Source of the DNA: Rhodanobacter sp. C06
Lineage (GTDB): Bacteria; Pseudomonadota; Gammaproteobacteria; Xanthomonadales; Rhodanobacteraceae
Direction of reading: 5' to 3'
Assembly: GCF_002001105.1 (NCBI RefSeq)
Contig: NZ_MUNP01000049.1
Location: 1 to 64,000, forward strand
DNA length: 64,000 bases
Both the position numbers and the translations under genes were made by a program. The stretch's first letter is position 1. Each line of letters begins with the position of its first letter. Below, in pieces: positions 27,656 to 55,177 of the stretch. Under the pieces are notes generated by a model, which made no database searches, was not told the origin of the DNA, and saw nothing but the letters and a program-made list of their open reading frames with translations.

Positions 27656-27925
27656 TTACGCTCCCTCGTCGAACTTGCGCTCGAACAGCGCCGCCACCGC
27701 GTCCAGCGCGGCCTGTTCGTCGGGGCCGTCGGCGCGGATCGTCAGCGGCGTGCCGATGCCGGCGGCGAGCATCATCACGCCCATGATGCTCTGCGCGTTG
27801 ACCTCGCGCCCCTTGCTGGCCAGCAGCACGGTGGATTTGAAGCCCTGCACCAGTTGCACCAGCTTGGCCGAGGCGCGGGCGTGCAGGCCCAGCTTGTTGG
27901 ACACCACGATTTCTTGTTCAAGCAT
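27656..27925 (-). CDS. ptsH: Phosphocarrier protein HPr
   Basis: An 89-residue HPr. The enzyme-I-dependent site is H15 (KLGLHARAS) and the HprK-dependent site is S46 (NAQSIMGVM), both exact. The presence of hprK in the same cluster means S46 phosphorylation is likely used. The start codon is immediately preceded, base for base, by one arm of a 30-bp inverted repeat (27926-27955) whose partner overlaps the EIIA stop, so translation initiation may be structure-controlled. I see only a weak ribosome site, AACAGG, some 13 bases before ATG. Confidence 0.94.
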   Translation of the reverse strand: MLEQEIVVSNKLGLHARASAKLVQLVQGFKSTVLLASKGREVNAQSIMGVMMLAAGIGTPLTIRADGPDEQAALDAVAALFERKFDEGA

Positions 27926-28215
27926 TGGGGCGCACTGACCTGTTCAGCATGGGCGGCATGAAACCTGGAAGGCCCGCAGGGTGCGGGGCGTGGCGCAGCC
28001 AAGGCTGGCCGCCTTGGCAAGGCGCGCATCGCGGCTTGCGGGCCTTCCAGGTTTCACCCTGACATTTGGTATTGAATGCGCGGGCCGATTCTGCCTGCCC
28101 GCAGCTTCGCGTCGCACCTCCTCGATAGGCAGCCAGCCTACCTTCGTCGGTTCGGCACAAATCTGCGGGCAGGCAGAATCGGTGACGCCCATGTTGAACA
28201 GGTCAGTGCGCCCCA
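27926..28215. repeat. 290-bp bipartite inverted element (outer stem enclosing two long hairpins), copy 1
   Basis: The outer arms are 27926-27955 and 28186-28215, complementary at 29 of 30 positions, with the exception a wobble-type change. Inside, hairpin A has a perfect 19-bp stem (27960-27978 / 28037-28055) topped by an 8-bp stem with loop TGGCC (27998-28018). Hairpin B has a perfect 20-bp stem (28085-28104 / 28163-28182) topped by TAGGC-AGCCA-GCCTA (28126-28140). Read in opposite strand orientation, A and B share CGCAG, the TGGC loop and TGCG at equivalent places. It fills the whole EIIA-HPr gap. Confidence 0.88.
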
Positions 28216-28598
28216 TCAATGAAGATTCCCCCGCGGCCGCCGCTTGCCGCGATCTCGGCCAGTTCGTCCAGTGGTTTTTCCGCGTAATTGAGCACGCGCA
28301 GCAGCATCGGCAGGTTGAGGCCGGAGACGCAGCGCAGGCGCACGCCCAGTGAACCCAGCGACAGCCCGATGTTGCACGGCGTGGCGCCGTAGAGGTCGGC
28401 TAGCACCAGCACGCCCTCGCCCTGGTCGAGCGCGCGCGCATGCCGGGCGGTGAGCGTGCGCATCACGTCGGGGTCGGCCTGCGGCGGCACTTCCACCGCT
28501 TCCACCTGCAACGGCAGCTTCGGCATCACGTGGTGCGCGGCGGAGATCAGCGCGTGGCCGACCGCTTCGTGGGTCATCAGCATCACGCCCACGCTCAT
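28203..28598 (-). CDS. PTS EIIA component, mannose-type
   Basis: A 131-residue EIIA of the mannose family. The phosphorylated histidine is H10 (MLMTHEAVGHAL), and the DLYGATPCN loop is typical. ATG 28598 (MSVGVMLMTHE) is chosen; the longer frame starts with unrelated residues. Alone, without IIB or IIC, it usually acts as a phosphoryl acceptor in the regulatory PTS. It is upstream of ptsH in the same direction, and its last codons and TGA lie inside the right arm of the 290-bp inverted element. Confidence 0.9.
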   Translation of the reverse strand: MSVGVMLMTHEAVGHALISAAHHVMPKLPLQVEAVEVPPQADPDVMRTLTARHARALDQGEGVLVLADLYGATPCNIGLSLGSLGVRLRCVSGLNLPMLLRVLNYAEKPLDELAEIAASGGRGGIFIDGAH

Positions 28599-28637
28599 GG
28601 TCGTGCACCCGCCTGCTTGCATGCGATGGTCATGGCT

Positions 28638-29540
28638 TCAGTCCAGCTCGCGGTGGAAGGTGAGCACGCCTTCGCGCGTTTCGCGATAATGCGCGGCGAG
28701 CTGCTCGACCAGGTACACCGAGCGATGCCGGCCACCGGTGCAGCCGATCGCGATGGTGACGTAGCTGCGGTCGTCCTGCTCGAAGCGCGGCAGCCACGTG
28801 TCCAGCCAACGCGTGGTGTCGGCGAGGTATTCGGTCACCAGCGGCTCGCCTTCGAGGTATTCGCGCACCGGCGCGTCCTTGCCGGAGAGCGGGCGCAGCC
28901 GCGGTTGCCAGTGCGGGTTGGGCAGGCAGCGCGCGTCGAACACGAAATCCGAATCCAGCGGCAGCCCGCGCTTGAACGCGAAGGACTGGAACATCAGGGT
29001 CATGCCCTCGGTGGCCTGCGCGTAGCCGGTGGCGACCAGCCGGCGCAGCTGGTGCACGTTGAGTTCGCTGGAGTCGATCACCTTCTCGGCGATCGCCATC
29101 AGCGGGCGCAGCAGGCGGCGCTCCTTGCCGATGGCGTCGGCCAGCGACATGCCGCGCGTTGCCAGCGGGTGGCGGCGGCGGGTTTCCGAGTAGCGCTTGA
29201 GCAGCACTTCGTTGCTGCAGTCGAGGAAGATCAGGTGCAGCTGCACGCCGGTGGCGGCCAGTGCGGAGAGGACCTCGGGCAGGTGCTCGAAGTCGTCGCC
29301 GCGATTGCGCACGTCCACGCCCACCGCGATGCGCCGGCGCCGGCCGGCGCCGCGGCCCACCGCGTCCACCAACTGCGGCAGCAGGGCCGGCGGCAGGTTG
29401 TCGACGCAGTAGAACTCCAGGTCCTCCAATGCGCGCAGCGCCACCGTCTTGCCGCCGCCGGACATGCCGGTGAGCACGATCAGGTGCGTCTCGTGCGGGT
29501 CGGTGTAGGGGCTGGGCGGCGGCGGATGGTCTTCGTTCAT
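28638..29540 (-). CDS. rapZ: RNase adapter protein RapZ
   Basis: A 300-residue P-loop protein. In enterobacteria RapZ directs RNase E to the GlmZ small RNA according to glucosamine-6-phosphate level. Walker A is LTGMSGGGKTVAL (K31), and the C-terminal GCTGGRHRSVYLVE motif is the conserved ligand-binding part. The proline-rich first 18 residues are an extension. It lies 4 bases after hprK and 39 before the EIIA gene, the classic rpoN-linked order of proteobacteria. Confidence 0.92.
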   Translation of the reverse strand: MNEDHPPPPSPYTDPHETHLIVLTGMSGGGKTVALRALEDLEFYCVDNLPPALLPQLVDAVGRGAGRRRRIAVGVDVRNRGDDFEHLPEVLSALAATGVQLHLIFLDCSNEVLLKRYSETRRRHPLATRGMSLADAIGKERRLLRPLMAIAEKVIDSSELNVHQLRRLVATGYAQATEGMTLMFQSFAFKRGLPLDSDFVFDARCLPNPHWQPRLRPLSGKDAPVREYLEGEPLVTEYLADTTRWLDTWLPRFEQDDRSYVTIAIGCTGGRHRSVYLVEQLAAHYRETREGVLTFHRELD

Positions 29541-29544
29541 GGCA

Positions 29545-30495
29545 TCACCAAGGCGGCAGTCGGCGCAGCTGGTGCGCCTGGCGGTCGATGAAGGTCTGCG
29601 CGGGGTCGATGCCCTTGCTCTTCAGCGCGTGGCTGCGCACCGCCGCCTCGACCAGCACGGCGATGTTGCGGCCGGGCGCCACCGGGATGGTGATCATCGG
29701 CACCTTGACGTCGAACACCTCGCGGTGGCCGATGTCGCCGGTGAGGCGCGTCAGCGCGTCGATGTCCTCACCCTCGCGCAACGGTTTCAGGTGGATCACC
29801 AGGCGCAGGTACTTGGACGGCTTCACCGACATGTGGCCGAACATCTCGCGCACGTTGAGCACGCCCAGGCCGCGCACCTCCAGCAGGTCCTGCAGCAGTT
29901 CGGGGCAGCTGCCGTCGATCACGTCCGGCGCGATCAGGGTGAACTCGGTGGCGTCGTCGGCGACCAGGCGGTGGCCGCGGCTGATCAGTTCCAGCGCCAG
30001 CTCGCTCTTGCCGGCGCCGGCTTCGCCGGTGATCAGCACGCCGATCGAGAACACCTCCAGGAACACGCCGTGCAGGGTGGTCTTCGCCGCCAGCTGGCGC
30101 GCCAGGTGGTATTGCAGGAAGGTCAACACTTCGTGGCCGCGCTTGGCGCTGACCCACAGCGGGGTGTCGGTTTCCTCGGCCACCTCGCGCAGGTCGGAGG
30201 GTACCGGCTGGTCCTTGGTGACGATCAGCGCCACCGGCCGGCTGGCGGCGATCTTGTGGATCACCTCCCAGCGCTGGCGCGAGTCCAGCCCGTCGAGGAA
30301 GTTCAGCTCCTCCGTGCCGATGATCTGGATCTTGTTCGGGTAGATGACGTTGAGGTAGCCGATCAGCGAAGGCCGGCGCGCCTGCGCGGCGCCCGGTTCC
30401 AGCACGCGTGATTCGCCGCGCATGCCGGCGACCCAGCGCAGCACCATGCGCTCGTTGACGCCATCGTAGAGTTGTCGTGCGGTGAGCCGGTCCAA
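29545..30495 (-). CDS. hprK: HPr kinase/phosphorylase
   Basis: A 316-residue bifunctional kinase/phosphorylase acting on HPr S46. The N-terminal domain ([20 protein letters not shown]) is followed by the kinase core with Walker [16 protein letters not shown] and the HprK signature [18 protein letters not shown] 30495 is preferred because it gives the normal family N-terminus ([11 protein letters not shown]) and has AAGGA upstream; an in-frame ATG at 30552 would add 19 arginine-rich residues. Together with HPr, EI and EIIA it completes the regulatory circuit. Confidence 0.9.
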
Positions 30496-30628
30496 GCCTT
30501 CGGTCCTTTGCGTCGCGCGCCGCCGGTAGGGTTCGCGGCGGGGCAGGGGCATTGTGCCAGCTTGGGCGGTGTGCGTGTTTCGAAGGGAAGGCAGGCCGCC
30601 CCTCGCGGAGCGGCCTGCGGGAGACGGA

Positions 30629-30952
30629 TCAGCCGTACTGGCGTTCCTCGCGCACGGCGCGCTGGTGCTTGTCGACGATCTTCTCGCGATGGCGGCGCAG
30701 CTGGTTGACCAGCTTGTCGAACAGCATGTCGATGGAGGCGTACATGTCGGCCTCGGCGGCCTGCGCGTGCAGGGTGGCGCCGGTGACGCCGAGCGTGGCG
30801 TCCGCGCGGTGCTGAAGCTTGTCCACGGAGAGCACCACGGCGAGGCTGATCAGCTTGTCATCGAGGCGTTGGAGGCGGTCCAGCCTGGATTCGACATGGG
30901 CGCGCAGCGCGGGGGTGACTTCGATCTGCTGGCCGCTGAGTTGGAATTGCAT
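30629..30952 (-). CDS. hpf: Ribosome hibernation promoting factor (short HPF/YhbH)
   Basis: A 107-residue beta-alpha-beta-beta-beta-alpha protein that binds the 30S decoding site and dimerises ribosomes in stationary phase. It starts [40 protein letters not shown] is the conserved second helix. GAGGAGG with 6-base spacing precedes ATG 30952. It is downstream of rpoN, separated by a 290-bp structured element and an additional 14-bp-stem hairpin in its leader. Confidence 0.92.
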
Positions 30953-30998
30953 GGTACGCCTCCTCTGGTGGTGCAGTGCCGCGTTTGGCGGCGGGATG

Positions 30999-31028
30999 GA
31001 CACGCCAGGGGCTGGCCCCTGGCGTGTC
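30999..31028. promoter_or_regulatory. Perfect hairpin in the hpf leader
   Basis: A perfect 14-bp stem (30999-31012 with 31015-31028; effectively a CTGG tetraloop) lies 46 bases before the hpf start. It has no T run on the hpf-sense strand, so a leader structure or processing site is more likely than a terminator. Confidence 0.55.
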
Positions 31029-31086
31029 GTCGATCATCCTTCACTACAGGTAATGGGAGCGTTTTTCCGGTGGGCAAGTTCCCTTT

Positions 31087-31372
31087 GGATGCTCCGATCA
31101 ATCCCAGTGTAGGTGTCACCGGTCTGTCTGCGCGCAGCCCGCAGGACCGTCGTCGAAGGCAGACTGGCTGTCTGTCAAGACGGCGGGCCGAAGGGATGCG
31201 CGCAGACAGACCGGCCTCAACTGCTTGAATTCAAATGACGAGGTGATGCCCAGAAGGTCCGCATATCGCCGCGCGCGTCTTGCCCAGACAGCCGTCTGGG
31301 CGGCGCCACGCACGACAATCTGCGAACCTTCTGGGCATCATGACGCCTGCACTGGGATTGATCGGAGCATCC
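31087..31372. repeat. 286-bp bipartite inverted element, copy 2
   Basis: The outer arms 31087-31109 and 31350-31372 match perfectly over 23 bp and extend to 32 bp (31087-31118 / 31341-31372) with two wobble-type differences. Hairpin A has an 18-bp stem (31119-31136 / 31197-31214) and apical CAGAC-TGGCT-GTCTG (31160-31174). Hairpin B pairs 31244-31263 with 31321-31340 (19 of 20) and has apical GCCCAGAC-AGCC-GTCTGGGC (31282-31301). Stems share no sequence with copy 1, but size, order and core positions are the same. It begins one base after the rpoN stop codon. Confidence 0.88.
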
Positions 31373-31373
31373 T

Positions 31374-32840
31374 TCAGACTATGCGCTGGCGTTCGCTGGA
31401 ACTGGGGATGCGCAACCCCTCCCGGTACTTCGCCACGGTGCGCCGGGCAACCTGGATGCCCTTGCCCTTCAGCTCCTCGGCCAGCGCCTGGTCGGACAGC
31501 GGCTTGCGCGGGTCTTCCGCCTCGATCAGCTTGCGCAGCATGGCCTGGATCGCGGTGGCCGAGGCGCTGCCGCCGTCCTCGGTGGACACGCCGCTGGAGA
31601 AGAAATACTTCAGCTCGAAGGTGCCGCGCGGCGTGTGCAGGTACTTGCGCGTGGTGACGCGCGAAATGGTGGATTCGTGCATGCCCACCTCCTCGGCCAC
31701 CTCGCGCAGCACCAGCGGATGCATCGCCTCGGGGCCGTAGTCGAGGAACGCGCTCTGCCGCCGCACGATCGCGCCGGCCACCTTCAGCAGGGTCTCGGCG
31801 CGCGATTCCAGGCTCTTCAGCAGCCAGCGCGCTTCCTGCAGCTGGCCCTTCATCCAGCTGGCGTCGTCGCCGCGGGCGCGGGCGATCAGGTTGCAGTAGT
31901 GCTGGTTCAGGCCCAGCCGCGGCTGGGCGTCCGGGTTCAGGCGCACCTGCCAGCGACCGCCTTCCTTCACGGCATAGACGTCCGGCGCCACGTATTCCAC
32001 CGGGGTGGTGTCCAGCGCCGCGCCGGGGCGCGGGTCGAGGCTGCGGATCAGCGCGGCGGCGGCGGCCACCTCGTCCTCGCCGGCGCGCAGCTTGCGCGCC
32101 AGCTTGCCGATGTCGTTGCGCGCGAGCAGTTCCAGCTCGCCGTCGACGATGGCGAGCGCCAGCTCGCGATGCGGGGTGGCGGCGTCGAACTGTTCCAGCT
32201 GGCTGCGCAGGCAGTCGCGCAGGTCCAGGCTGGCCACGCCCAGCGGGTCGAAGCCCTGCAGGCGGCGGCGCACCGCCTCGATCTCGTCGAGGTCGGCGGC
32301 CAGGTTCGCCGGCAGCGCCGCGCGCACCGCCTCGATGCTGTCGGCGAGGTAGCCGTCGGCGTTCAGCGCATCGATCAGCACGGTGGCGATCGCGGTCTGG
32401 CGCGGGTTGAAGCCGGCGAGGTTGAGCTGCCACAGCAGGTGTTGCTGCAGGGACTCGGGGGTGACGTTCTGCGGCTCGAAATCCTCGTCGCCGCGCGTGG
32501 CGCCGCTGCCGCCGCTGCCGTTGGAGAAGTCGATCGGGGTTTCGACGCTGCCGCCGCCGTCGTCGGCCCAGTCGGCGACGTCGCCACCGTCGACATCGCG
32601 ATCGGCGGCGGCCTCGGCGGGGCCGGGCGCCTGCACGTAGTCGGCTTCCGGCGTGGCCTCGTCAGAGGCGGCCTCGTCCTCGCTCTCGTCGGCGAACTCC
32701 AGCAACGGATTGCTTTCGGCAAGCTGCCGCAACTCGGCCTCCAGCTCCAGTTGCGACAGTTGCAGCAGGCGGATCGCCAACTGCAGTTGCGGCGTCAGGG
32801 TGAGCTGTTGATGGAGGCGGAATTGCAGTGCGGGTTTCAT
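31374..32840 (-). CDS. rpoN: RNA polymerase sigma-54 factor
   Basis: A 488-residue sigma-54. The glutamine- and leucine-rich activator-interacting region is residues 1-48 (QLTLTPQLQLAIRLLQLSQL), followed by an acidic linker (about 48-130), the core-binding domain, and the DNA-binding part with the RpoN box ARRTVAKYRE near the C-terminus. Length is normal. It is followed downstream by the 286-bp inverted element and hpf, and preceded by lptB, the standard proteobacterial order. Confidence 0.95.
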   Translation of the reverse strand: MKPALQFRLHQQLTLTPQLQLAIRLLQLSQLELEAELRQLAESNPLLEFADESEDEAASDEATPEADYVQAPGPAEAAADRDVDGGDVADWADDGGGSVETPIDFSNGSGGSGATRGDEDFEPQNVTPESLQQHLLWQLNLAGFNPRQTAIATVLIDALNADGYLADSIEAVRAALPANLAADLDEIEAVRRRLQGFDPLGVASLDLRDCLRSQLEQFDAATPHRELALAIVDGELELLARNDIGKLARKLRAGEDEVAAAAALIRSLDPRPGAALDTTPVEYVAPDVYAVKEGGRWQVRLNPDAQPRLGLNQHYCNLIARARGDDASWMKGQLQEARWLLKSLESRAETLLKVAGAIVRRQSAFLDYGPEAMHPLVLREVAEEVGMHESTISRVTTRKYLHTPRGTFELKYFFSSGVSTEDGGSASATAIQAMLRKLIEAEDPRKPLSDQALAEELKGKGIQVARRTVAKYREGLRIPSSSERQRIV

Positions 32841-39972: not shown

Positions 39973-40093
39973 CGTCATTCCGGCGCAGGCCGGAATCCAG
40001 TCAGAGAACTCGTGCGAAGCACGCCGAATATGTTCTGTTTCGTGTGCTTCGCACGATGCATTTCACTGGGTTCCGGCTTTCGCCGGAATGACG
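39973..40093. repeat. REP-like inverted element between purM and purN
   Basis: The outer 29-base arms (39973-40001 and 40065-40093) match at 26 positions and each can fold on itself (CATTCCGGCG...CCGGAAT type). A perfect 13-bp inner stem (40010-40022 / 40044-40056) lies between. CGTCATTCCGGCG is the common REP word of many proteobacteria. Confidence 0.8.
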
Positions 40094-54158: not shown

Positions 54159-55091
54159 ATGCCCAGCATGGTGCGCATGCAGAAAGAAGATTCGCCCAGT
54201 ATCGCCGAAGCGGATGCCGCGAGCATCGACGCCTTCCTGGAACGCGTGTGGTCCGAGGACGGCCTCGCCGACCGCACGCTGGAGGCCTATCGCCGGGATC
54301 TGGAAGCGCTGGCGCGCTGGCTGGCCGGTCGCGGGCGCACGCTGCGCAATGCGCGGCGCGAGGACATCTCCGCCTACCACGGCGAGCAGCATGCCGCGGT
54401 GCGCTCGATGGCGCGGCGGCAGTCGGCGTTCCGCCGCTACTACGCGCATCTCGCTCGGGAACAGACCGGCTTCGAGGATCCCACCTTGCTGATCGAGCGT
54501 CCGCGCATGCCACGCAGCCTGCCCAAGGCGCTGGCCGAGCGCGAGATCGAGGCGCTGCTGAATGCGCCGGACACCGACGGCACGCTGGGCCTGCGCGACC
54601 GCGCGATGCTGGAGCTGATGTACGCCTCGGGCCTGCGCGTTTCCGAGCTGGTGGAGTTGCCGCTCGCCGCGCTCAACCCGCGCCAGGGCGTGTTGCGCGT
54701 CACCGGCAAGGGCGGCAAGGACCGCCTCGTGCCGGTAGGCGAGGTGGCGCTGGGCTGGATCGAAAGCTATCTCGCCGGTGCGCGTCCCGCGCTGGCCAAG
54801 GGGCATCAGCCCGCGGCGCTGTTCCTCAGCCGGCGTGGCGAGGGCATGACGCGACAGATGTTCTGGACCCTGGTGAAGCGCCATGCACTGAAGGTCGGCA
54901 TCCAGGCCAAGCGCATCTCGCCGCACGTGCTGCGCCACTCCTTCGCCACGCATTTGCTCAACCACGGCGCCGACCTGCGTGCGCTGCAGATGCTGCTCGG
55001 CCACAGCGCGCTCAGCACCACGCAGATCTACACCCTGGTGGCGAAGGAAGGGCTGAAGCGCCTGCATGCGCAGCATCATCCGCGCGGCTAG
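54159..55091 (+). CDS. xerD: Site-specific tyrosine recombinase XerD
   Basis: A 310-residue recombinase that resolves chromosome dimers at dif together with XerC and FtsK. All catalytic residues are present: R160 (ASGLRVSEL), K184 (TGKGGKD), H256 and R259 (SPHVLRHSFATH), H282 (LLGHS) and Y291 (TTQIYT). The core-binding SAM-like domain is residues about 20-105. ATG 54159 is used; a TTG at 54141 and internal ATGs are possible. Its stop overlaps the first base of a REP-type repeat. Confidence 0.94.
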   Translation: MPSMVRMQKEDSPSIAEADAASIDAFLERVWSEDGLADRTLEAYRRDLEALARWLAGRGRTLRNARREDISAYHGEQHAAVRSMARRQSAFRRYYAHLAREQTGFEDPTLLIERPRMPRSLPKALAEREIEALLNAPDTDGTLGLRDRAMLELMYASGLRVSELVELPLAALNPRQGVLRVTGKGGKDRLVPVGEVALGWIESYLAGARPALAKGHQPAALFLSRRGEGMTRQMFWTLVKRHALKVGIQAKRISPHVLRHSFATHLLNHGADLRALQMLLGHSALSTTQIYTLVAKEGLKRLHAQHHPRG

Positions 55092-55177
55092 GCCAAAAGA
55101 GGGTCAGAGTGCAGTTTTCGAGGATGCCCGGCATTGCCAGAAGCGTCGTAAAACTGCACTCTGACCCTCTTTTGGCC
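55091..55177. repeat. REP-type inverted repeat with GGGTCAGAGTGCA arms
   Basis: Perfect 28-bp arms (55091-55118 and 55150-55177) flank a 31-base loop; the core word is AGAGGGTCAGAGTGCAGTTTT-like. Repeats of this type are recognised in Xanthomonadaceae as REP sequences linked to RAYT transposases. None is encoded nearby, so it must have been mobilised in trans. Confidence 0.85.

Follow-up and report, generated by a model that had tools for sequence, protein, structure and literature searches.

Within a 64,000-nucleotide stretch of Rhodanobacter sp. C06 (contig NZ_MUNP01000049.1, positions 1 to 64,000; hereafter the window), two short elements of closely similar build lie among genes whose NCBIfam matches are HPr, RapZ, HPr kinase, HPF, sigma-54 and enzyme I of the phosphotransferase system (PTS). 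E1 (27926-28215) stands between the gene for a PTS EIIA and ptsH, and E2 (31087-31372) between rpoN and hpf. We consider it probable that both are IS5-type miniature inverted-repeat transposable elements (MITEs) carrying a separate conserved cargo of paired modules, most likely acting as RNA. A first-pass annotation made from the letters alone had recognized the four hairpins between 27960 and 31340 and missed the terminal inverted repeats; because such a repeat encloses each pair of hairpins, the units were redefined as 27926-28215 and 31087-31372.

Both elements (286-290 bp) have the same internal order, consisting of a terminal inverted repeat of 32-33 bp, hairpin A (96-98 nt), a linker (28-29 nt), hairpin B (97-98 nt) and the second terminal repeat, with no room for a transposase gene. 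The hairpin layout originally described (CGCAG, about 20 nt, an apical stem with TGGCC, TGGCT or GGCT, AAG or GAG, about 15-20 nt, TGCG) holds for hairpin A as written and for hairpin B on the opposite strand, with slightly wider spacings than had been given. For searches, we built covariance model R1 from 17 beta-type modules, including those at 27959 (plus strand) and 31244 (minus strand), and model R2 from 16 modules outside the host's taxonomic family; R2 is not fully independent of the window because its members were found via R1, which was trained partly on the window. The features are as follows.

27656 to 27925, minus strand: ptsH-like gene of the HPr family (TIGR01003, E 1.5e-30), gene ends placed by eye; its start codon directly adjoins E1
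27926 to 27958: left terminal inverted repeat of E1, an outer stem of 33 bp, 94% complementary to 28183-28215
27959 to 28056, plus strand: hairpin A of E1, sense module of beta type (R2 match of 66.9 bits, E 1.8e-12; in the R1 training set)
28057 to 28084: central linker of E1, with a small stem in the minimum-free-energy fold
28085 to 28182, minus strand: hairpin B of E1, an alpha-type module whose sense strand is the minus strand (R2 match from 28086, 47.8 bits, E 3.1e-8; outside both training sets)
28183 to 28215: right terminal inverted repeat of E1, which provides the final EIIA codons and the stop
28203 to 28622, minus strand: mannose-type PTS EIIA gene (NF040761, E 4.7e-11; TIGR00824, E 1.2e-7), ending within the right repeat of E1
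30629 to 30952, minus strand: hpf, ribosome hibernation factor (TIGR00741, E 1e-27), downstream of E2 by transcription direction
31087 to 31118: left terminal inverted repeat of E2, 32 bp, beginning GGATGCTCCGATCAATCC..., 94% complementary to 31341-31372
31119 to 31214, plus strand: hairpin A of E2, sense module of alpha type (R2 match of 48.9 bits, E 1.8e-8; outside both training sets)
31215 to 31243: central linker of E2, with a small CCTC/GAGG stem in the minimum-free-energy fold
31244 to 31340, minus strand: hairpin B of E2, a beta-type module whose sense strand is the minus strand (R2 match from 31245, 50.1 bits, E 9.8e-9; in the R1 training set)
31341 to 31372: right terminal inverted repeat of E2, adjoining the rpoN stop codon and missing in the 12 relatives read
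31374 to 32840, minus strand: rpoN, sigma-54 (NF004595, E 1.8e-183), upstream of E2 by transcription direction

All three profile matches of the EIIA gene fell under their curated cut-offs, yet they were consistent. The four hairpins are real. An inverted-repeat scan of the 64 kb (score at least 16, arms within 330 bp) returned the element stems and outer arms plus four further inverted repeats, whereas three base-shuffled controls gave none each. Folding z-scores of the 286-290-nt elements ranged from -16.8 to -18.6 over both strands, and none of 200 shuffles equaled them. The R2 matches lie in the orientations first described, and apart from the other-strand reading of the 27959 hairpin (E 2e-4) the model found no further place in the window below E 0.1, the next standing at 0.15.

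Both E1 and E2 are insertions. At the E1 junction, the flanking matches were 1-105 bp apart and the element absent in 13 of 14 congeners (five junctions were read), with only 2 bp separating the flanks of 27925 and 28216 in the congener G014. There, ptsH runs straight into the EIIA gene, whose frame overlaps ptsH by a few bases. In the window, the end of E1 contributes the three final EIIA codons plus the stop (both readings by eye). E1 splits a gene pair that overlaps in G014 and supplies a new EIIA C-terminus, which may have broken translational coupling. The fourteenth congener, G009, has 249 bp between the flanks (about 375-622 of locus L045), by eye perhaps a decayed element of the second family described below, although R1 found no match in this stretch. 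At the E2 junction, the element was absent in all 12 relatives read; G014 shares the E2 insertion at 98% identity, and the junction search in G006 gave no match. Additional copies occupy other loci in G002, G008 and G014. A second family of elements (family 2) has a different end sequence (AGAGCCTGTTCA...) and identical architecture at 13 loci read in the C06 genome and five congeners. Searched against plasmids with blastn, E1 had no match, and one element of a distant type had none in Escherichia coli genomes; the flanks of a locus of family f161 matched plasmids as two separate segments covering 60% of the query, the pattern that absence of the element would give. The idea that the outer arms are copies of host flanks was dropped, as family members elsewhere carry identical ends.

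Separately from these junctions, we noted that the alpha hairpin of one family-1 copy (L039:70-210) and the linkers of two family-2 copies (L080 and L083) contain a nested mini-element, about 45-52 nt long, that reads GGCCTTGAGGAGCGAGGAAGG and has a center resembling CCATGGATGG.

The terminal repeats point to partner insertion sequences (IS) in congeners. Two IS in G014 (L281 and L283) are of the family-1 type, with GGATGCTCTGATCAAT at their start and flanks of CTAA/CTAA and TTAG/TTAG, and the first 16 bases of E2 differ from their left end by one mismatch; one IS in G012 (L284) starts with GAGCCTGTTCAAAGTCTC, is flanked by TGA/TGA and represents the family-2 type, the family-2 ends being equal to its own. 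Their proteins are IS5-family transposases (NF033581 and NF033580). R2 found no module in five transposase loci, so the elements and the insertion sequences have only their ends in common, and an origin by internal deletion from a module-carrying IS was rejected on this result. Judged by this likeness, the ends appear to be of the kind recognized by an IS5-family transposase. Profile PF01609 matched in three of six genomes, leading to the partner elements, and none was found in the C06 genome (G000), where the IS copies seem to be cut off at contig ends. The sequence GGATGGTCTGATC lies at bases 185-197 of seven of its contigs (C1, C2, C7, C27, C40, C42 and C82), and the first bases of C1, by eye, give LFALGNLWMARGILLQPR-stop, resembling the C-terminus of the G014 transposase; the equal distance from seven contig starts together with this C1 start suggests that the genome holds a collapsed or unassembled multi-copy IS5-family element.

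Target sites carry a signature in part of the set. Identical 3-bp flanks were present in 14 of 39 GAGCC-type elements, against 5.1 expected by permutation; 19 GGCCTG-type and 10 GGATGC-type elements lie mainly at CTAG-like sites, and one of the two GGCAACG-type elements has exact flanks. In distant families, the same architecture is bounded by terminal repeats of several kinds: some differ clearly, and others read AGRGCCTGTT or GG...CTGATCAATTC as here. A tree built from 70 modules over 102 columns, with many of its forks open, requires 6 changes among the four end classes, where 3 is the least possible; the starred branches force 3 changes for the GGCCTG class, and L218, with GGCAACG ends, falls inside the GGATGC group. 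The end class of L231 is probably mis-assigned.

The interior has a pattern of conservation of its own. In a module of about 97 nt, the outer stem of about 20 bp retains complementarity alone, and the core near the tip is conserved. Across the phylum, the core reads in order GGCAAGGCGC, a short variable helix, CGCAG, the apical hairpin, CAAG, a helix and GCAACGCCGC; in 87 modules drawn from 54 loci, every outer-stem column stays below 60% for any single letter, and GGCAAGGCGC, CGCAG, CAAG and GCAACGCCGC are conserved. The family of the window keeps CGCAG, the apical hairpin and CAAG, and the outer half of its core deviates, being GTGCGTGGCGC ... CAAG-CGCGCG in the beta type. Hairpin stems run to the foot, and elements measure 265-290 bp across the set. 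For the 17 modules, changes on both sides occurred in 25 of 42 pairs (17.4 in shuffles, none of 500 as high), with a covariation score of 0.588 compared with 0.202 for shuffled and at most 0.105 for slid controls. For the 87 modules, 93.3% of cells pair (shuffled 52.8%, slid 34-39%) and the covariation score lies above both controls; this alignment was fitted to the model, towards which its pair counts lean, and another, A4, was made without structure. Alignment A6, which mixed both strands of the same hairpins, was left out.

Adjacent modules are nearly always head to head. The 54 loci, largely the best-scoring ones and including one locus of the window family, contain 31 adjacent pairs, 30 of which have this arrangement, and the remaining one comes from reading the opposite strand of an L143 hairpin that was in the count before; the R2 training set contributed both modules in three loci and one module in five. 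The earlier proposal that each element is a head-to-head pair of one module is thereby strongly supported.

In the second hairpins of family 2 (L076, L084 and others), we observed by eye 2x2 internal loops that, on the hairpin's own sense strand, would be tandem G-A mismatches. Such mismatches are stable in both RNA and DNA.

Covariance-model searches, of the kind that the first-pass annotation had suggested, showed the module to be widespread. Within the host's taxonomic family, R1 hit 60 of 117 genomes, representing 20 of 26 genera, with up to 34 matches per genome (the best 34 candidates were scored, and other-strand readings of one hairpin may be counted); in the C06 genome it found 26 distinct places, 20 of its 46 rows being the same places on the other strand. 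Class-wide, R1 matched in 8 of 369 genomes, C06 included. R2 matched in 78 of 398 genomes of the phylum (again including C06), in 48 of 213 genera and, among the matches listed, in 20 families. A core-pattern scan blind to stems gave at least 114 stretches, of which 80 were taken as loci, and 70 of these yielded a distinct complete element, from Rhodanobacter, Dyella, Fulvimonas, Frateuria, Pseudoxanthomonas, Xanthomonas and Luteimonas.

In a palindromic stem under neutral change, G-T and A-C mismatches are equally frequent on a given strand. The 52 distinct beta stems from the core-pattern finds have 53 G-T and 9 A-C. When the 70 elements were recounted after filtering for pairing, with one count per genus, end class, position and base, the ratio in the beta stem was 39:10 (sign p 2e-5). 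By comparison, the outer 23 bp of the terminal repeats had 14 G-T and 12 A-C (19:14 in the recount), and their inner positions 24-31 were reversed, with 16 and 37. In 30 pairs found by covariance model, the G-T excess appears in both modules, each on its own strand (38:10 and 33:10), and the modules of the 87-module set found in this way total 103:25. From these counts, the case for the beta module being read as a single folded strand is moderate, and for the second module it is weak.

Loops also show a link within elements. The stretches common to the loops of both modules of a pair averaged 4.07, against 3.24 under permutation (4 of 2000 permutations for the 30 pairs; 0.004 with one element per family), and the same permutation on stems and core gave no within-pair excess. 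Since two identical loops become complementary on one strand when their modules stand head to head, this favors a loop-loop contact for part of the set. The complementarity of the A and B loops that was reported at first is true and follows from the head-to-head layout. Support for the contact drawn from it is partial: only 5 of 30 pairs share at least 7 loop bases, and the loop of the second hairpin in family 2 is unrelated.

Gene context was counted for the 70 elements with a rough home-made gene caller, which left 14 undetermined and placed 3 inside an open-reading-frame call. The 53 elements with two callable neighbors comprise 31 between tandem, 12 between divergent and 10 between convergent genes. 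A bias towards convergent genes has been reported for Pseudomonas fluorescens repeats in the accessible part of PMC2718517; no such bias is visible among the 53 elements, counted without a genome background.

Bringing these lines together, sequence comparison places E1 and E2 among the non-autonomous miniature transposons, as type II MITEs of IS5 type, in agreement with the first-pass suggestion of a MITE-like element: the ends in the genus are IS5-type, part of the set has a target-site signature, sites are empty in relatives and copies number in the dozens. Bacterial MITEs are usually regarded as insertion sequences deprived of their transposase. Here, the conserved structured pair is absent from the partner insertion sequences, which suggests an activity belonging to the interior itself. 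That interior forms a separate conserved cargo and is no remnant of a partner IS. The mismatch counts indicate that each module may work in single-stranded, folded form on its own strand. We infer a function for the module, and the folded strand would most likely be RNA in read-through transcripts. Under the reading we prefer, an IS5-family transposase supplied in trans would recognize the element ends. Read-through transcription of the inserted element would yield the folded RNA module, and insertion in either direction would leave one module in sense because the two face opposite ways. A host factor, whether RNA polymerase, a ribonuclease or an RNA-binding protein, would then recognize the sense core, and this would make insertion between genes nearly harmless.

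Several observations weigh against this interpretation, on both its transposon and its RNA side. As to the ends, that of E1 is only similar to those of the partner insertion sequences, with no matched IS found. A search of 16 genomes for the G014-type transposase came up empty in 13, several of which have many modules. Neither E1 nor E2 shows an exact target duplication, and identical flanks of the CTAG-type elements were not above permutation (GGCCTG 5 against 5.3; GGATGC 2 against 2.0). End type AGRGCCTGTT recurs across several families, and end classes mostly follow the module tree, so the interior generally descends along with its ends and switches are occasional; the 6 changes on the tree and this recurring end type weaken the case for free swapping of terminal repeats. 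As to the fold, both-side changes among the 87 modules (33 of 34 pairs) are hardly above shuffles (31.6; reached in 11 of 500). Of the 53 G-T mismatches in beta stems, 34 lie within the five pairs next to the core, so a conserved wobble may account for some of them. In the recount, the second hairpin gave 24:14 on its own strand (p 0.07), leaving the asymmetry significant for the beta stem only; a covariance search may favor G-U in the modules it finds; and relatedness inflates such counts. Finally, among the elements between tandem genes, the beta sense agrees with the genes in 16 and opposes them in 15. This count shows no preferred orientation relative to genes, so no regulatory use is visible.

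An extension of the preferred reading, which we advance tentatively, makes the paired module itself the actual selfish unit: an ancient, phylum-wide structured nucleic acid whose folded strand would be seen by a host factor and which would ride on any IS5-like ends, the pairing ensuring a sense copy and the loops touching in some elements.

A less probable alternative is that the modules act as DNA, the hairpins being extruded during replication or by supercoiling and the core serving as a site for a structure-specific protein that joins the ends or shields the palindromes, much as enzymes bind the hairpins of attC sites or repetitive extragenic palindromic (REP) sequences. Head-to-head symmetry fits a double-stranded DNA element, and the outer arms and two hairpins are predicted to form one compact junction on both strands (with RNA parameters). 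Strand-specific mismatches, too, are a trait of folded-DNA substrates. The partner IS5-family loci speak against this alternative in that they lack the module, which their transposase therefore seems not to need; RNA and DNA are otherwise inseparable from sequence alone.

We regard as improbable the view that the modules are passive palindromes, their stems kept perfect by template-switch repair of quasi-palindromes and their core conserved through recent shared ancestry only. Hairpin-templated correction would indeed leave perfect stems of unrelated sequence, and stem identity is 0.281 within an element compared with 0.306 between elements. The core, however, is kept in 20 families whose stems have been replaced, a depth that seems greater than recent ancestry would allow, and the strand-asymmetric mismatches of the beta stem are unexpected under symmetric correction.

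It is very unlikely that these are known REP, BIME or REPIN elements moved by RAYT transposases. They share with those elements inverted pairs of imperfect hairpins, conserved bases outside the stems and a high copy number, yet a length of 265-290 bp, terminal repeats of about 32 bp, stems paired to the foot and IS5-type ends do not fit, and the REP-like option offered at first is not supported because the units are far larger and terminal repeats are present. Least credible of all is an ordinary structured intergenic RNA (leader, attenuator or terminator) of the rpoN-pts cluster: both elements do lie between genes of one cluster, but the same junctions are empty in nearly all congeners examined, which refutes an operon-specific regulatory RNA, copies sit at unrelated loci and the terminal repeats are of IS type.

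The commonness of the module makes it relevant to genome annotation and to the expression of gene pairs split by the elements, and its conserved core is a concrete bait for finding whatever binds it.

Elsewhere in the window, at 39973-40093, an inverted pair (CGTCATTCCGGCGCAGGCCGGAATCCAGT / ACTGGGTTCCGGCTTTCGCCGGAATGACG) resembles a dimer of CGTC-tagged palindromes; its TTCCGG repeat is also compatible with the MRSC-65-2 motif as given in the accessible text of PMC11109978. At 55091-55177 there is a perfect 28-bp inverted repeat, GGCCAAAAGAGGGTCAGAGTGCAGTTTT, with 31 bp in between.

As the first-pass annotation had surmised, the design matches no named family that we could find. Rfam 15 at the gathering threshold gave no match in the window, and nine loci searched against Rfam with a limit of E 0.5 had a single weak match, which fell outside the element; no description of a paired head-to-head module was found in the literature, supplementary tables being outside the reach of the search. 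Among known systems, integron attC sites, like the modules here, combine variable stem letters with conserved strand-specific irregularities; in contrast to them, the present elements have transposon ends. IS5-family insertion sequences (NF033581 and NF033580) share the type of terminal repeat and target flank with these elements, but they encode a transposase, and the loci tested lack the module.

REP, BIME, REPIN and CGTC palindromes are similar in forming dimers of imperfect hairpins in inverted order with many copies, according to the accessible parts of PMC3733652 and PMC3116915. The REP-type units described there are 20-40 bp with a GTAG or CGTC tag (PMC3733652, in part), whereas the present elements are far larger and have long terminal repeats, and their hairpins of about 97 nt, paired to the foot, are not 20-40-bp palindromes with an unpaired GTAG or CGTC tag. 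A survey of noncoding RNA in 50 genomes lists 250 mobile or repeat sequence candidates, among them MRSC-65-2, a covarying motif with dozens of copies per genome whose RNA or DNA form is left open (PMC11109978, accessible text). Its UYCCGG repeat in one long stem is unlike our module, although the module could be among the other candidates, since that text describes one of the 250, and earlier cataloguing is thus possible. The P. fluorescens repeats R0, R2, R6 and R200 are also comparable, with inverted repeats around a core in R0, R2 and R6 and IS-shared ends in R0 and R2, and R200, at 320 bp, is similar in size to the present elements, a comparison by description only (PMC2718517, in part).

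Close counterparts are the type II MITEs Correia, Chunjie, QMITE and MITEPsy1, which, according to the accessible part of PMC10969869, are short, non-autonomous and mostly intergenic, resemble IS at the terminal repeats only and fold stably. MITEPsy1 duplicates CTAG or YTAA and resembles the IS5-family ISPsy2 (accessible part of PMC3189936), and Chunjie, to go by the title of a reference in PMC10969869, inserts into an operon without disturbance. None of the MITEs described in the accessible parts of these two papers combines a phylum-wide conserved interior, made of two modules placed head to head, with terminal repeats of several kinds. The elements here are likewise short and transposase-free, with terminal repeats, having their ends but not their interior in common with autonomous insertion sequences, and they show empty sites and many dispersed copies; they would thus be IS5-type MITEs whose novelty lies in the paired conserved module.

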